NCBI GenBank assembly: GCA_937944885.1
Contig: CALFBB010000035.1
Location: 1-35,493, forward strand
Direction: 5' to 3'
DNA length: 35,493 nt
From: an uncultured cyanobacterium
GTDB lineage: Bacteria > Cyanobacteriota > Cyanobacteriia > Thermostichales > Thermostichaceae
A program made the translations under genes and the position numbers. How positions within the stretch are numbered: position 1 is the stretch's first letter; each line of letters begins with the position of its first letter. Positions 4,383 to 12,173 of the stretch are shown here, in pieces. The notes beneath the pieces are model-generated. The model saw only the letters and a program-made list of their open reading frames with translations. It was not told the origin of the DNA and ran no database searches.

Positions 4383-5294
4383 ATGACTACTGTTGCCGCT
4401 CCTAACCTAACCGGTCGCCTGATCAATGTTCTCCTGTCGATTCGGCCTCTATTTAATTGGGCCAAGGGGCAGGCTCGCCAGATGATGATCCGACGGGCCG
4501 CCGAAATTGGTGTGGACTGGTTGGGTCGGGTTGAAGCACTGATGGCCCAGGATTTGGCAGCAGAATTGCCAACTGTACAAAATCCCAGTCTGGTTTACCC
4601 GGACTATTACCTGCGCCCTTTCCATGCTTATGAGGCTGGTAACTTGAGTTGGGAAGCTGCTACGGAAGTGGAAGTGGCTGCTTATGCTGTTCATGCTCGT
4701 ATCTGGCCGGAGGCCGGTGCCCAAGGGGATGCCCGTCTGCGTCAGAGCTACCATCAGGTGTTGCAGGAGCGGATCCCGGCCTCACCGCAACGCATTTTGG
4801 ACTTGGGCTGTAGCGTTGGCATGAGCACCTTTGCCCTTCAGGATCTCTACCCAGAAGCTGAGGTGGTGGGGTTGGATCTTTCTCCTTACTTTTTGGCGGT
4901 GGGCAATATCCGAGCTAAGGAGCAGCAGCGGCAGGTGCAGTGGATCCATGCTGCAGCAGAATCCAGTGGCTTACCGGCAGCCAGCTTTGATTTGGTTTCC
5001 GCCTGTCTGCTGTTTCACGAGTTACCTCAGTCGGCAGCTCGGGCTGTTTTGGCAGAGGCTCGCCGTTTGCTTAAACCCGGCGGCTACTTTGCCCTTATGG
5101 ATATGAACCCGGCCTCACCAGTGTACGCCCAGATGTCCCCAGCCATTCTCACCCTCCTGAAAAGCACAGAGCCTTACCTGGACCAATACTTCAGCCTGGA
5201 TATGGCTGCAACTTTGGCACAAGAGGGGTTTACAGACATTACCCTTCAGCCCAATACACCTCGCCATCGGGTTCTTCTTGCGCGGGCATGCTGA
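4383..5294 (+). CDS. Class I SAM-dependent methyltransferase
   Basis: The protein has 303 residues. An N-terminal region of about 130 residues has no motif I recognise. It is followed by a Rossmann methyltransferase domain: motif I ILDLGCSVGMSTFAL (near 137), the acidic residue at the end of strand 2 in VVGLDLSPYFL, LVSACLLFHELP (motif IV/V region) and LLKPGGYFALMDMNPAS. The pattern is that of the UbiE/type-11 group acting on small molecules or lipids. The acceptor is unknown. The start is the ATG at 4383, shortly after TAATAT at about 4351, which could be part of a promoter. The gene stands alone; an IS element begins about 80 bp downstream. Confidence 0.82.
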   Translation: MTTVAAPNLTGRLINVLLSIRPLFNWAKGQARQMMIRRAAEIGVDWLGRVEALMAQDLAAELPTVQNPSLVYPDYYLRPFHAYEAGNLSWEAATEVEVAAYAVHARIWPEAGAQGDARLRQSYHQVLQERIPASPQRILDLGCSVGMSTFALQDLYPEAEVVGLDLSPYFLAVGNIRAKEQQRQVQWIHAAAESSGLPAASFDLVSACLLFHELPQSAARAVLAEARRLLKPGGYFALMDMNPASPVYAQMSPAILTLLKSTEPYLDQYFSLDMAATLAQEGFTDITLQPNTPRHRVLLARAC

Positions 5295-5395
5295 TGGATC
5301 GGTACAGGTGGATCTGTTTCTGTTTAGGGAATTTGATTGTCAAGTTGATTGGTCTGCTTGATCTTGGCTCAGTTGACCTAAAAATAATGGGATGC

Positions 5396-5420
5396 AAGCC
5401 CTGCCCTTTTAGGGCGGCTT
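5396..5420 (-). repeat. IS end hairpin on the tnpA side (may also terminate tnpA)
   Basis: AAGCC (5396-5400), a CT bulge, and GCCCT (5403-5407) pair with AGGGC and GGCTT (5411-5420) across a TTT loop. This 10-bp stem with a two-base bulge overlaps the tnpA stop codon. Confidence 0.7.
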
Positions 5421-5804
5421 TTCTTGTTGCTGGATGTATTGCTTCAAGATTTCCAGGGGCGCTCCGCCTACCGATACTGAGAAATGAGCAGGCGCCCATA
5501 GCGATACCTTCCCTTTTGGCTTAGGTAGCCCAGCCTGCCCATACCGCCGACTAGAGACCCCTTTCAGCGCATTCACCATCCGCGAGATGGAAAGTTTAGG
5601 CGGATACTCTACCAGCAGGTGAACATGGTCGTCCTCGCCATTGAACTCAAGAATCTGGAAGCCCATCTTCAGGGACACGTCCCGACAGGCAGCCTCAATG
5701 ACCGCCAACCCATCGGCACTCAGCACCTTCTGTCGGTACTTGGTTACAAAAATGAGGTGTGCTCTCAGGTCTGAAACACTATGATTTTCTCGCCGATATC
5801 GCAT
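5409..5804 (-). CDS. tnpA: IS200/IS605 Y1 transposase TnpA
   Basis: This HUH single-strand transposase excises and inserts the element at its end hairpins. The 131 residues include HLIFVTKYRQ near the N terminus, the metal-binding His-x-His in DDHVHLLVEYPPK (about residues 60-70), RMVNALKGVSSRRYG, and GGAPLEILKQYIQQQ near the C terminus, whose Tyr is the nucleophile. I start it at the ATG at 5804 (MRYRRENHSV); the frame continues upstream for 27 codons unlike the family. Length and catalytic residues look complete. It diverges from tnpB with about 36 bases between the two starts. Confidence 0.9.
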   Translation of the reverse strand: MRYRRENHSVSDLRAHLIFVTKYRQKVLSADGLAVIEAACRDVSLKMGFQILEFNGEDDHVHLLVEYPPKLSISRMVNALKGVSSRRYGQAGLPKPKGKVSLWAPAHFSVSVGGAPLEILKQYIQQQEKPP

Positions 5805-5840
5805 TGCTATTAGCACTACGACCAACCTATAGTAGTGTGC

Positions 5841-7038
5841 ATGAAAGTACGATACCAGTACAGAATCTACCCCACCGACCAACAATGCAGGGACTTGGCC
5901 AAAGTCTTTGGATGTTGCCGTGTCGTGTGGAATGATGCGCTGGCGCTCATCCAGTCCCTGCCCAAGGGCGAGAAGTGGCCGAGCTGCGCTGAACTACAAA
6001 AGCGCTGCATCACCCAAGCAAAAAAGATAGAGGGTCGAAAATGGCTGGCTGAAGTCAGCAACATTCCGCTGCAGCAGTCCATCCGAGACCTCGGAACAGC
6101 GTTTAAGAACTTCTTTGAGTCAAGGAAGGGTAAACGGAAGGGGCGGCGTGTTGGGTTCCCGCAGTTCAAAAAGAAGGCAAATCGGCAATCAGCCCGTTTC
6201 TGCAGGGGGGGATTTTCGATAAAGTCGGCAAAGGTATATCTAGCCAAGATTGGAAATATCAAAACCAAATGGTCTAGACTGTTGCCTGCCGAACCAAGTT
6301 CTGCGACGGTCATCAAAGATTGTGCTGGACGACATTTCATAAGCTTTGCGGTGGAGATTCAGCCCGTCAGCATTGAGCCTAAGAACCAAGGGGTCGGTGT
6401 TGATTTTGGGTTAGAAACCCTTGCCACATTGAGCACTGGCGAAAAGGTGAAAGCACCTGATACCAGTGCGTTATACCAGTGCGTTGGACCGCAAAATCCG
6501 TAAAGGGAAACGCAAACTCTCAAGGGCCATAAAAGGCTCGAAGCGGCGTGAACGGTTACGGAGAGCAATTGCTCGAATTGAAGCCAAGCAACGCGATATT
6601 CGTCGAGACTTCAACCAAAAGCTGGCTGCTCGCCTAGTGCGGGAAAACAGCGTAGTGGTGCTGGAAGACTTGAACGTGTCCGGCATGATGAAGAATCGGA
6701 AACTCGCCAGGGCGATTAGTCGAGCGGGATGGCGGCAAATCAGGGCGATGTGTGAAGCTAAGTCCGGCATGATTGCGGATCGGGAAGTGAGAACCATCAA
6801 CCGATGGGAGCCAACTTCTCAAACGTGTTCGTGTTGCGGTTATCGGTGGGGCAAGTTAGACCTGTCGGTGCGGTCTGTACTGTGTCTCAACTGCGGGGCT
6901 GAACACGACCGAGATGTGAACGCCGGAGCAAACATTTTGGCGGCAGGACTTGCCGACCCGAATGGGCAGGCGTTAAGCAGTGTAAGACCCCAGTCCGGGG
7001 CGGTTGCTTGTCTGTCAACCCATCAGGAGGCTGTGTAA
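5841..7038 (+). pseudogene. tnpB: tnpB (RNA-guided nuclease family), frameshifted by a 13-bp duplication
   Basis: TnpB proteins of IS200/IS605 are RuvC nucleases guided by an RNA from the element's right end. The N-terminal half runs from the ATG at 5841 (MKVRYQYRIYPT) and includes the first RuvC aspartate in VGVDFGLETL. It goes out of frame at 6473 and stops at 6503. The C-terminal half is open from 6484 to 7038 and has the second RuvC acidic residue (VVVLEDLNVSGM), the zinc ribbon (TCSCCGYR and CLNCGAEH) and the third aspartate (DRDVNAGAN). Removing one copy of the 13-bp repeat at 6460-6485 joins them as TSALDRKIRKGKRKLSR, which is the normal family sequence, about 394 residues in all. So every catalytic residue survives and a single event inactivated the gene. 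Confidence 0.92.
6460..6485. repeat. Perfect 13-bp tandem duplication that breaks tnpB
   Basis: ATACCAGTGCGTT occupies 6460-6472 and again 6473-6485. Thirteen is not a multiple of three, so the extra copy shifts the frame. Deleting either copy restores a continuous TnpB. Confidence 0.97.
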
Positions 7039-7056
7039 TGCAGTCAGACTGGAAAT

Positions 7057-7077
7057 CCCCGTCGCTTCAGCGCGGGG
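7057..7077 (+). repeat. IS right-end hairpin
   Basis: CCCCG (7057-7061), a bulged T, CGC, loop TTCA, GCG and CGGGG (7073-7077) form an 8-bp stem with one bulge, directly before GAGGATGTCAA. Bulged hairpins of this kind mark IS200/IS605 right ends. In related elements this region is also the 3' part of the TnpB guide RNA. Confidence 0.8.
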
Positions 7078-7094
7078 AGGATGTCAAAGCAAAG

Positions 7095-7965
7095 TTATCG
7101 TTTGCCCAAACCCAGCGCCTTTTCCACCTGCTTGGCGGCATAGGCCATGGCAAAGCAGCAGATGAAGTAGACCACCCCAATGAAGAACAGCACTTCTTTT
7201 TGGGTGCCCAGCCAGTTGGGATTGGTAAACACCACCCGACCCGCCTGCAACAGATCGATCAGTCAGACCGATGATGAACACCAGCGAAGTGTCTTTGAAC
7301 AGGGTGAGAAACTCATTCACCAATGCCGGAACCGAGGCTCGCAAGGCTTGGGGCAGGATAACCAAGGCTGTGATCTGAAACGGGTTGAGGCCCACAGCCC
7401 GTGCCGCCTCCACCTGACCTCGTGATACCGCCTGCAAACCACCGCGCACATCCTCCGCCACGTACACAGCCGTAAAGAGGATGAAGGCCACCTCAGCACG
7501 GATGATCAGGTTAACCGTGATCCCCCCCAAAAAGAAAGGCACCAACAGCCAGGCAGCGAACAAAATGGTGGTTAAGGGAACACCCCGAATGAGCTCGATC
7601 AATAGAGTACAGAAAATCCTAACCACCGGCAGCGCGTGATTGGCACGTCCCAAAGCCAGCAGTACCCCGATGGGAAAAGCGATGATCAAGGCCGCTGCCG
7701 CCAGCATCAAAGTCAGCAGCAAACCCGACAGCTGCTCTGCCCGCACCCCTGGCAAGTTGGGGGAAAGATTGCCCAACAACAACTCCAAACAAAGAGGCAG
7801 CACCAAAGCCCAGATCCAGATCGAGGCTAGTCGCCAGGATTCCCGTCCGCGACTGATGGCAACAGCTACCAAGGTTACCCCGGCACAGCCTGCCAGCCAC
7901 CCCCGAGATTGCCCCAAAGGCAAGAGAGCTGCCAACCCCATGCAAATTCCTAAACCAAAGCGCCT
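7095..7965 (-). pseudogene. aapM: Amino-acid ABC transporter permease AapM, truncated and frameshifted
   Basis: This was the second inner-membrane permease of a polar amino-acid importer (AapJQMP/N-II type). The remnant starts abruptly in the middle of the N-terminal hydrophobic region (RFGLGICMGLAALL). It keeps the permease core: GVLLALGR, IELIRGVPLTTILF, YVAEDVRGGLQAVSRGQVEAARAVGL and LPQALRASVPALVNEFLTLFKDTSL. Then GATC is duplicated (GATCGATC, about 7256-7263), which shifts the frame. Beyond it, another frame still encodes the expected tail ending EKALGLGKR with TAA at 7095-7097. The first ~95 residues are missing through a deletion that joins it to aapQ. The ATPase gene that usually follows is absent; the IS element begins within about 10 bp. 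Confidence 0.9.
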
Positions 7966-8899
7966 GCGGCACAATCACCAGTTGAAAGGTGGCCAATTCT
8001 GTTAGGCCAATGGCTCGCGAGGCCTCCCATTGTCCCCGCTGCACCGCTAAGAAGGAGCCCCGTACCACTTCGGCAATGTAGCAGCCGGTGTAGGTGACCA
8101 GACCCAGCATCATGGCGGTAAACTCTGCCGAAAGCTGGGTTCCACCCCGAAAGTTAAAGCGATCCAGCACCGGAATATCCACGCGTAACGGCGACTCAGG
8201 GAAAAGAATCCAACAGGCGACCGCCAGCAGCAGCACCCCTAACCCTACCAGGCTGTTTCGCTGGATTGGCCCCACATCCGGGCGGCGAGCCAAGAGCAGT
8301 TTGCGGATCCCCCGAGCGGCTCCGGCCAAGATGATTACTGTCGGGAGCAGCCACCCACTGGGATCCAAACTGGGCAGGTTAATCCCCCGCTGACTGATGA
8401 AGAAAAAGCCCCCAATTGAATAGCTGTTGCGTACCGCGGGCAAAGTCAGGATCACCCCTTGGTACCAGAAGATGACGATCAAGAGCACCGGGATATTACG
8501 AAAGATCTCTGTGATGATTGTGGCCAGTTGACGGGCCAGCCAGTTGCTGGAGAGGCGAGCCACCCCCAAGATCATCCCCATCACCGTCGCCAAGACAATG
8601 CTGATGGAGGAGAGCCAAAGGGTATTCACTACACCGACCACAAAGGCCTTCAAGTAGCTCTCGGAGGGGTCGTAAGGGATCCCTTCGGTGATGCCAAAGT
8701 TGGCGGAATTGCCCAAGAATCGAAACCCAAAGGTTATCCCCAAGCGGCGCAGACTACTGGTCAGGTTCTGGGTAAGGATCCCGAACACTATCAGCACGGC
8801 AATGACAAAAGCCACTTGCAGGACAATTTTGAGGATGCGTTCGTCTCGCCACCAGGGGGGCTGAATATGGGGTTGGCTGGAAAGGGAAGTCATGAGCAT
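7962..8899 (-). pseudogene. aapQ: Amino-acid ABC transporter permease AapQ, C terminus deleted
   Basis: This is the first permease of the same importer. About 310 N-terminal residues are intact from ATG 8899 (alternative ATG 8893). They include WWRDERILKIVLQVAFVIAV (first membrane helix), ITEIFRNIPVLLIVIFWYQG, the inserted region between the first helices typical of AapQ, and AEVVRGSFLAVQRGQWEASR with its EAA-loop glycine. After LATFQLVIVPQAL the family sequence stops and the DNA continues in AapM coding sequence in another frame. The reading frame runs on to 7619 as nonsense. The lost piece is the last cytoplasmic loop and final helices (about 70 residues). Confidence 0.9.
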
Positions 8900-9016
8900 C
8901 TAAGCAGTTCAAACAGAGAAAGCTCTAAATCCAGCCTAGGGATCCCCATCCAGTCAACAACAGACGGGATCCCTGGGGTGGGGGTCAGATCAGCAGCATG
9001 GGATCAGGGTTCGGAA

Positions 9017-9492
9017 TTAGCGGAAGGGGGGCGCGTACTGGATCCCACCCTGGGTATAGGGCTGATTCAAACCACGGGCCACCCCCAACGGAGTTAGATG
9101 GCGGTCGAAGATCTCGCCGTAGTTACCGACTGCCTTGATCACATTCACCGTCCAATCCGGTTCCAATCCCAGCACTTCCCCGAGGTTGCCGTCTTGACCC
9201 AAGAACCGCAGGATATCGGGATCCTCAGAGCTGAGGAACTCCTCGACATTGGCGCTGGTAATTCCCCTTTCTCCTGCGTAGAACAGAGCGAAGACTGTCC
9301 AGTTCATGATGTCGGAGAAGCTCTCATCCCCTTGGGAAACCAAGCGACCTAGCGGTTCTTTAGAAATCACATCCCCCAAGATGACCTGATCCTCAGGGTT
9401 TTGCAGGGTTGCCCGGCGGGAGATCAGAGCACTTTGATCGGAGGTGATAGCATCGCAGCGCCCTTCATCGTAGGCATTGTAGGAGGAATCGT
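9017..9492 (-). pseudogene. aapJ: Amino-acid ABC transporter substrate-binding protein AapJ, 5'-truncated
   Basis: The remnant is the C-terminal part of a periplasmic polar-amino-acid binding protein. It has YNAYDEGRCDAITSDQSAL, EPLGRLVSQGDESFSDIMNW, a linker with DGNLGEVLGLEPDW, and NYGEIFDRHLTPLGVARG, ending at TAA 9017-9019. A complete AapJ is about 340-360 residues; only some 158 remain. The signal peptide and first lobe are gone. The remnant begins at or within a few bases of the stop codon of the upstream methyltransferase gene, so it has no start or promoter of its own. It lies in normal order before aapQ, about 117 bp away. Confidence 0.9.
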
Positions 9493-10248
9493 CTAGAGGG
9501 GCGTCAGCCGCGCCAGAAAGGCTCCCTCGGGATCTTGGTAGATAATTTGCCCTTGCCAACCGGTGGCTTGGGCATGTCGGAGAAGCGTTTCCGGATCCAC
9601 AAACAACCAAGGGAAGGGATCCCCCCGTTGCCCCTGGTACTCTGCTGTAAAGTAAATTACTTGTTCAGGGTCAGCCGCAGGGTCGGTAAACTCCTCTTCT
9701 GCCTGCAGGTCCTCTTTTGGGGGATCCCTGAGGTCGGTGGAGTCCAGGAGCAGTTGCCCGGTCGGTTGAATCCAGTCCTTGGCCAAGGTTAACAATCGAT
9801 CCAGCCCCACCAGGGATCCCACCAAGCCCACCCCATTCATCAACAGCAGCAGCGTGTCGAAGCGAAATTCCGGCCCTGGCCACTGAAAAATATCCGCCTG
9901 AATACGGTTGAGGACGCCTCGCTCTTTCATAATCTGCTGGGCCAAAGGGGAGCGATCCAGGGCCCAAACTGACAGACCCCGTTCCTGCAACAACAAAGCA
10001 TGCCGGCCCGTACCCGCTCCGATATCCAACACCCGCCCGCGACACAGATCCAAGGCCAAGGCTTCCGTTTCTGGCAAGTCCTGAGTGAAAAACACTTCCG
10101 CTGAGATCACCTGAACCGGCTCAACCGGGATCCCCTGTGGGGAGTGGGCATGCATCAAAACTGGCCCCTTGGGCTGCCCCCGATGCCAATCCCATAGCGC
10201 CTGATCCAACGGATCCCAGCCCTGATCTTTTTCGCCAGCCTCTATCAT
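9493..10248 (-). CDS. Class I SAM-dependent methyltransferase
   Basis: The 251 residues show a methyltransferase core: FFTQDLPETEALALDL, then motif I RVLDIGAGTGRHALLLQERG (about residue 73), the acidic end of strand 2 in VWALDRSPLA, and DTLLLLMNGVGLVGSL as the motif IV region. A C-terminal half follows with GQLLLDSTDLRD and WLFVDPETLLRHAQATGW. This arrangement resembles type-11/25 methyltransferases of unknown acceptor. The stop codon (complement of 9493-9495) abuts the truncated aapJ, so the last residues may be native or newly created by the rearrangement; the ending AFLARLTPL looks natural. It is divergent from the small gene at 10276. Confidence 0.8.
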   Translation of the reverse strand: MIEAGEKDQGWDPLDQALWDWHRGQPKGPVLMHAHSPQGIPVEPVQVISAEVFFTQDLPETEALALDLCRGRVLDIGAGTGRHALLLQERGLSVWALDRSPLAQQIMKERGVLNRIQADIFQWPGPEFRFDTLLLLMNGVGLVGSLVGLDRLLTLAKDWIQPTGQLLLDSTDLRDPPKEDLQAEEEFTDPAADPEQVIYFTAEYQGQRGDPFPWLFVDPETLLRHAQATGWQGQIIYQDPEGAFLARLTPL

Positions 10249-10745: not shown

Positions 10746-12173
10746 ATGACTGCTAAATCCCCGCCACCTATTGTTTACATCACCCTGGGTCTATTGCTGA
10801 TCGGCGGGGGCTGGTATGGTTTACGTTCCGGTTATATTCGCTGGCCTGAGAACCTGCCCCAGCTTCTGCAGCCAAAAGATCCGCAGCCCAAAGCAAGCCC
10901 AGGGGTAGGGGCTAGCCCCGTGGTTCTCAGCCGCGGTGAACGCACCCTCTTTGCCGACAGCAGCCCCATGACAACAGCTGCTGCAGAGTTATTGCGGCAG
11001 GGCAACCTCACCGCTGCCATTCCAGTCTTGGAGACAACTTTACAAAACAACCGCAACGATCCGGAGGCACGCATTTTTTTGAACAATGCCCGTGCCCGGC
11101 AGCAAGGCAATCCCCTCAGCTTGGCGGTAGTGGTGCCCATCTCCAGCAATCCCAACCGGGCCAAGGAGACCCTGCGGGGGGTGGCCCAAGCCCAGGAGGA
11201 GTTTAGACAGCGGGGCGGCCTCTCCGGTCGCCTGCTGGAGGTGGTGATTGTCGATGATGGGGATGATGCTGAGCGGGCTGCTGCTGCGGCCAAAGCCTTG
11301 GTGGAGCAACCTGAGGTTCTCGGAGTGGTGGGGCACAACGCCAGTGATGCCACGATTGCTGCTGCTGCTGTTTATCAGGCTGCCGGGTTAGCGATGATCT
11401 CTTCCACCTCCACCAGCACCCAAATTAGCACCCTGGGCAACGCCATTTTCCGCACAGTACCTTCCGACCAAATTGCCGGTACCCAACTGGCCCGCTATGC
11501 TCTCAACACCCTGCGCCTACAGAGGGCAGCCATTTTTTACAATCCCAACAGTGCCTATAGCTCCAGCTTGCGCAATGCCTTTGCTACCACCCTAGCCAGT
11601 GAAGGTGGGCAGATCACCACTGAGTTTGATCTCTCGGCAGCCGACTTCAACCCCCAGTCCAGCTTCAAGATGGCAATTGGCCAAGGCGCTGAGTTGGCAT
11701 TTTTGGCCCCCACTGCGGCAGTGACCACCCAAGCTTTGGCTGTAGCTCAGGAAAATGCCCGCCATGGAAAACCTCTCACCCTCCTGGGCGGAGATGTGCT
11801 GTTTAGCCTCAATACCCTACAACAGGGAGGAGCTGCGGTGGAGGGTCTGGTGGTGGCGGTGCCCTGGCACCCGGATGTGCCCCGCAACCGTGAGTTTGCC
11901 CAGGCGGCAGCTCAACTGTGGGGGGGACAGGTAAGTTGGCGCACGGCTTTAGCCTACGATGCCACCCGTGCTTTTTTGCAGGCTCTGGAATCGGGAGCCA
12001 CCCGCACAGCGGTCCTGTCTGCTTTGGGTAGTCCCAATTTCTTGCTGAACAACGGAGCTTCGGGGCAGGTGCGCTTCTTGCCCTCCGGCGACCGGGATGC
12101 CCCAAATGTCCTGGTGCGCGTTCAACCGGGAAACCGCTCCGGTACCGGCTACGATTTTGTGCCCCTCCCCTAG
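10746..12173 (+). CDS. Membrane-anchored ABC-type (branched-chain amino-acid type) substrate-binding protein
   Basis: The 475 residues from ATG 10746 (MTAKSPPP) start with an uncleaved-looking hydrophobic segment (about residues 9-25). A Pro-rich linker follows, then a short TPR-like helical stretch (AAELLRQGNLTAAIPVLETTLQNN...EARIFLNNARAR, about 75-120). Next comes a periplasmic binding domain of the Leu/Ile/Val type: LAVVVPIS, VVIVDDGDDAERA, VVGHNASDATIAAAAVYQ, MISSTSTS, IFRTVPSDQIAGTQLARYA and AALAYDATRAFLQAL. Such TPR-plus-LivK proteins are common in cyanobacteria and their ligands are mostly unknown. A TTG at 10719 would add nine residues; ATG is preferred. No permease genes adjoin, so it may be a sensor rather than a transporter part. 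Confidence 0.8.
   Translation: MTAKSPPPIVYITLGLLLIGGGWYGLRSGYIRWPENLPQLLQPKDPQPKASPGVGASPVVLSRGERTLFADSSPMTTAAAELLRQGNLTAAIPVLETTLQNNRNDPEARIFLNNARARQQGNPLSLAVVVPISSNPNRAKETLRGVAQAQEEFRQRGGLSGRLLEVVIVDDGDDAERAAAAAKALVEQPEVLGVVGHNASDATIAAAAVYQAAGLAMISSTSTSTQISTLGNAIFRTVPSDQIAGTQLARYALNTLRLQRAAIFYNPNSAYSSSLRNAFATTLASEGGQITTEFDLSAADFNPQSSFKMAIGQGAELAFLAPTAAVTTQALAVAQENARHGKPLTLLGGDVLFSLNTLQQGGAAVEGLVVAVPWHPDVPRNREFAQAAAQLWGGQVSWRTALAYDATRAFLQALESGATRTAVLSALGSPNFLLNNGASGQVRFLPSGDRDAPNVLVRVQPGNRSGTGYDFVPLP

Follow-up and report, generated by a model that had tools for sequence, protein, structure and literature searches.

A probable, recently inactivated Aap/Nat-II type polar amino-acid importer in a hot-spring cyanobacterium of the Thermostichus (Synechococcus A/B) group

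The window, i.e. the whole analyzed stretch of 35,493 nucleotides, originates from a species of hot-spring cyanobacteria within the Thermostichus (Synechococcus A/B) group and very probably (we put this at about 0.92) harbors a polar amino-acid ABC importer of the Aap/Nat-II type that was inactivated recently. A previous sequence-only reading had proposed the relic of an aapJQMP importer, and this assignment is supported by five intact congeneric loci, by codons without relaxed selection and by the lack of a second copy in the assembly. The window corresponds to the entire contig C35 of a draft assembly (2.82 Mb, 62 contigs, 95% complete). It was compared with five genomes of the same genus (G001–G005), the species of the window being represented by one genome only (G000).

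In all five congeners aapM, aapQ and aapJ are intact and located on one strand, with aapP divergent beside aapJ. In the orientation of the window this gives the order aapM, aapQ and aapJ (minus strand), aapP (plus strand) and a second methyltransferase gene (methyltransferase 2, minus strand), and in G005 and G002 another methyltransferase gene (methyltransferase 1) is found to the left of aapM. The gene products of G005 comprise 401 (AapM), 389 (AapQ), 345 (AapJ) and 262 (AapP) residues. These congeneric clusters occupy the same genomic place as that of the window, and aap homologues are found also in related genera. Both adjacent permease genes of each congener, as well as both permease remnants of the window, match the HEQRo-type permease model TIGR01726 above its cut-off. 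The SBP_bac_3 binding protein beside them is intact in all five congeners and reduced to a C-terminal remnant in the window; the GlnQ-type ATPase AapP is encoded at full length and divergently in every congener and is missing from the window and from its genome. Judged by these families the ancestral locus is assigned to the Aap/Nat-II type of polar amino-acid ABC importers, and acidic as well as neutral polar amino acids would be its substrates by class. Gene names, subunit set and sizes are those of the Rhizobium AapJQMP general L-amino-acid permease; in contrast with it, the window copy is a relic. Among cyanobacteria the characterized systems of this class are Nat-II (natF-natG-natH-bgtA) and Bgt from Anabaena, both powered by BgtA (PMC4500139). 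Nat-II of Anabaena PCC 7120 (TCDB 3.A.1.3) has the same subunits in one cluster, namely one binding protein, two permeases and one ATPase, and mediates the uptake of acidic and neutral polar amino acids, its likeness to the Thermostichus aap genes being one of description (PMC4500139). It differs in so far as the Thermostichus ATPase gene is divergent from aapJ and the window cluster is broken.

Lesions were mapped by tblastn and by alignment against the G005 and G002 loci. The window copy contains none of the four importer subunits at full length, and its features are as follows:

7095-7958, minus strand: 3' remnant of aapM (natH-like permease), frameshifted and without about 115 of 401 N-terminal codons
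7259-7266, minus strand: 4-nt tandem duplication, TCAG TCAG on the plus strand (TCAGTCAG), causing a frameshift near the aapM end
7958/7959, no strand: junction of a deletion of about 583 bp, out-of-frame fusion of aapQ and aapM (alignment with G005/G002)
7959-8893, minus strand: 5' remnant of aapQ (natG-like permease), about 312 of 389 codons, with 96% identity to intact relatives
9017-9494, minus strand: 3' remnant of aapJ (natF-like periplasmic binding protein), 158 of 345 codons, without start and promoter
9494/9495, no strand: junction of a deletion of about 1.5 kb, which eliminated the 5' part of aapJ, aapP and the intergenic region between them

The smaller deletion extends from inside aapM (position 6441 of the G005 locus) to inside aapQ (7025), and as a single event of about 583 bp it cut off the end of aapQ as well as the beginning of aapM. 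AapQ has thus lost its last ~77 of 389 residues, and its frame, which is open over 424 codons, runs wrongly into aapM up to a stop at 7619. The larger deletion (about 1510 bp) begins inside aapJ (8591 of the G005 locus) and ends where the stop codons of aapP and methyltransferase 2 overlap (10101-10104). It took the first 187 of 345 aapJ codons together with the divergent promoter region and with aapP as far as its stop but spared the stop codon of methyltransferase 2, which is now found at 9493-10248 on the far side of the aapJ remnant, where the congeners have aapP in between. Repeats at the breakpoints were sought, and the deletion junctions share no more than one or two bases of possible homology. 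Together with an in-frame loss of 3 bp in aapM near 7911, the damage, as read from the alignments, consists of two large deletions and one 4-nt duplication. The sequence-only reading had correctly recognized the lost first half of aapJ, the missing end of aapQ (estimated there at ~70 residues), the missing start of aapM (~95 residues) and the frameshift of the latter. Its count of four independent lesions is wrong, as a single deletion took the end of aapQ along with the start of aapM, and the other took the aapJ start along with aapP. At the level of the sequence a functional transporter cannot be produced from this locus, because the ATPase, the promoter region, the first half of the binding protein and the integrity of both permeases are gone.

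Next to the aapM remnant an insertion of the IS200/IS605 type is found:

5295-7094, no strand: IS200/IS605-type insertion, filling the interval between the convergent stop codons of methyltransferase 1 and aapM
5409-5885, minus strand: tnpA, apparently complete (NF033573, 116 bits, 126 of 126 positions)
5835-7038, plus strand: tnpB in two pieces, both matched by TnpB models

The element thus has the Y1 transposase TnpA plus TnpB that characterize this family. A 13-nt tandem duplication at 6460-6485 (ATACCAGTGCGTT twice) interrupts its tnpB. The gap it occupies measures 3 bp in G005 and 78 bp in G002, and it is the only copy of its kind in the genome, apart from a match of 92 bases at 72% identity. 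An IS-mediated deletion was considered and rejected: the element sits between intact gene ends, beyond the aapM stop and on the side opposite to aapP, and no gene is gone there. By its position the insertion accounts for none of the aap lesions. The ATPase gene had been described as missing beside this element; it is indeed absent, but its position in all five congeners is on the other side of aapJ.

Two other explanations of the locus have to be weighed. The broken genes could be an artefact, the locus having been collapsed or chimerized during draft or metagenome assembly of an organism with intact genes, and with 62 contigs and 95% completeness the draft leaves some room for this. The remnants are, however, uniquely placed on a 35-kb contig with synteny on either side, several lesions of different kinds coincide at this locus, and on a different contig a further importer of this class is damaged too. 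Moreover, no other part of the assembly contains the missing segments. When copies were sought in the genome, the best match to AapP was 44% identical and AapJ retrieved only its own remnant and a relative of 24% identity. The deleted G005 DNA gave at most an ATPase-like match of 98 bases, in a search that had no positive control of its own but was of the type that recovered the homologous congeneric loci. Both checks proposed with the sequence-only reading thus came out in its favor: the search for an intact aapJQMP set yielded no second copy in the assembly, and comparison with relatives revealed five intact congeneric loci beside a broken one in the window. We therefore regard an assembly artefact as highly improbable. 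Even less credible is that the remnants still yield a useful product, e.g. a membrane protein derived from aapQ. The open frame of the latter and its seemingly preserved codons would fit such a role, but there is no ATPase, no aapJ signal peptide and no promoter region, both permeases are cut, the tail of the fusion lies in the wrong frame, and the preservation of codons is accounted for by recent inactivation. Recent inactivation of the importer thus is the preferred reading. An ancestral aapJ-aapQ-aapM cluster with divergent aapP suffered the two deletions and the 4-nt duplication; presumably the importer had lost its value and the deletions were fixed afterwards. The decay of aap may well belong to a broader disappearance of importers for polar amino acids from this lineage.

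The two aap remnants are the only matches to TIGR01726 in the window genome, and each congener has at least one HEQRo permease besides AapQ and AapM. A two-gene system of binding protein and permease present in G001–G005 has no counterpart in the window genome according to profile search. In G005 this pair (binding protein plus HEQ permease, positions 4828-6578 of the extracted locus L041) has no adjacent ATPase gene, and related pairs occur in G001–G004. A third system with binding protein, permease and ATPase is intact on contig C3 of G002; in the window genome a binding-protein fragment of it is found (contig C7, 62.3-62.9 kb; identity 82-86%), which carries a TAG codon and a tandem duplication that is out of frame, permease and ATPase being missing. 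The G005 binding protein of this third system is likewise shortened (positions 5046-5579 of the extracted locus L052), which suggests repeated loss within the genus. Two further binding-protein genes, on C42 and C17, are left without HEQRo permeases. Candidates for a Nat-I-like system are kept, namely LivH/LivM-like permeases on C9 and LivG/LivF-like ATPases on C15 (judged by eye from the sequence), besides a LivK-like binding protein inside the window (10746-12173). A urea importer is encoded on C3, with UrtA and UrtB exceeding curated cut-offs. As these neutral (Nat-I/Liv-like) components are retained, the loss appears restricted to polar amino-acid (HEQ-type) ABC import and would not concern amino-acid uptake in general. 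The sequence-only reading, which spoke of loss of amino-acid uptake, was right for the polar class, of which no intact HEQRo permease is left, but too broad otherwise. A contig missing from the 62-contig, 95% complete draft could in principle carry another importer. Rather speculatively, the two-gene system, which lacks a neighboring ATPase gene in G005, may have depended on AapP as well, in the manner of BgtA, which serves both Nat-II and Bgt in Anabaena. A single deletion would then have put two importers out of action and left each of them free to decay; if true, the whole class of polar amino-acid (HEQ) ABC import was lost in a linked manner.

For Synechococcus A/B it was already described that an annotated polar amino-acid transporter is lost as thermotolerance rises and genomes become smaller, and drift was proposed as the cause (PMC11456837). 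Genus group and class of the lost transporter are the same as here. In contrast with that loss in more thermotolerant clades, the window presents a partly decayed intermediate with its breakpoints, apparently in another lineage that is closest to the larger-genome pair G002/G005. The window genome is smaller, too, when compared with G002 and G005. A literature search for pseudogenized amino-acid transporters in hot-spring Synechococcus found nothing. The relic is best seen as another instance of this already reported loss, i.e. ordinary gene loss with no new mechanism. It captures the loss of an organic-nitrogen importer in heat-adapted Synechococcus A/B at breakpoint resolution, before sequence erosion, and would allow timing this loss and asking whether it recurs independently.

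The codons of the remnants show no sign of relaxed selection, and because of this the decay appears to be recent, as had been proposed. Changes unique to the window amount to 22 nonsynonymous and 100 synonymous ones in aap codons, compared with 29 and 162 in the two sisters (Fisher p=0.53). By a simple mixture estimate the neutral share of the branch is ~1.5% (upper limit ~5.6%), presuming a single history of the aap tract, which mosaic divergence may violate. The tract from 7095 to 9250 is much nearer to G005 and G002 than its flanks are. Identity to G005 amounts to 92-94% in aapQ and in the aapM part encoding the C-terminal half, compared with 80-84% in the flanking genes, and dS to G005 is 0.25 in aapQ versus 0.7-0.8 in the flanks. 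Within the tract lies a diverged stretch (7601-7956, 83% identity to G005), so that the whole is a mosaic. The divergence values between G005 and G002 show no such difference between aap and flanks. This pattern likely stems from homologous exchange with a G002/G005-like relative that took place before the decay.
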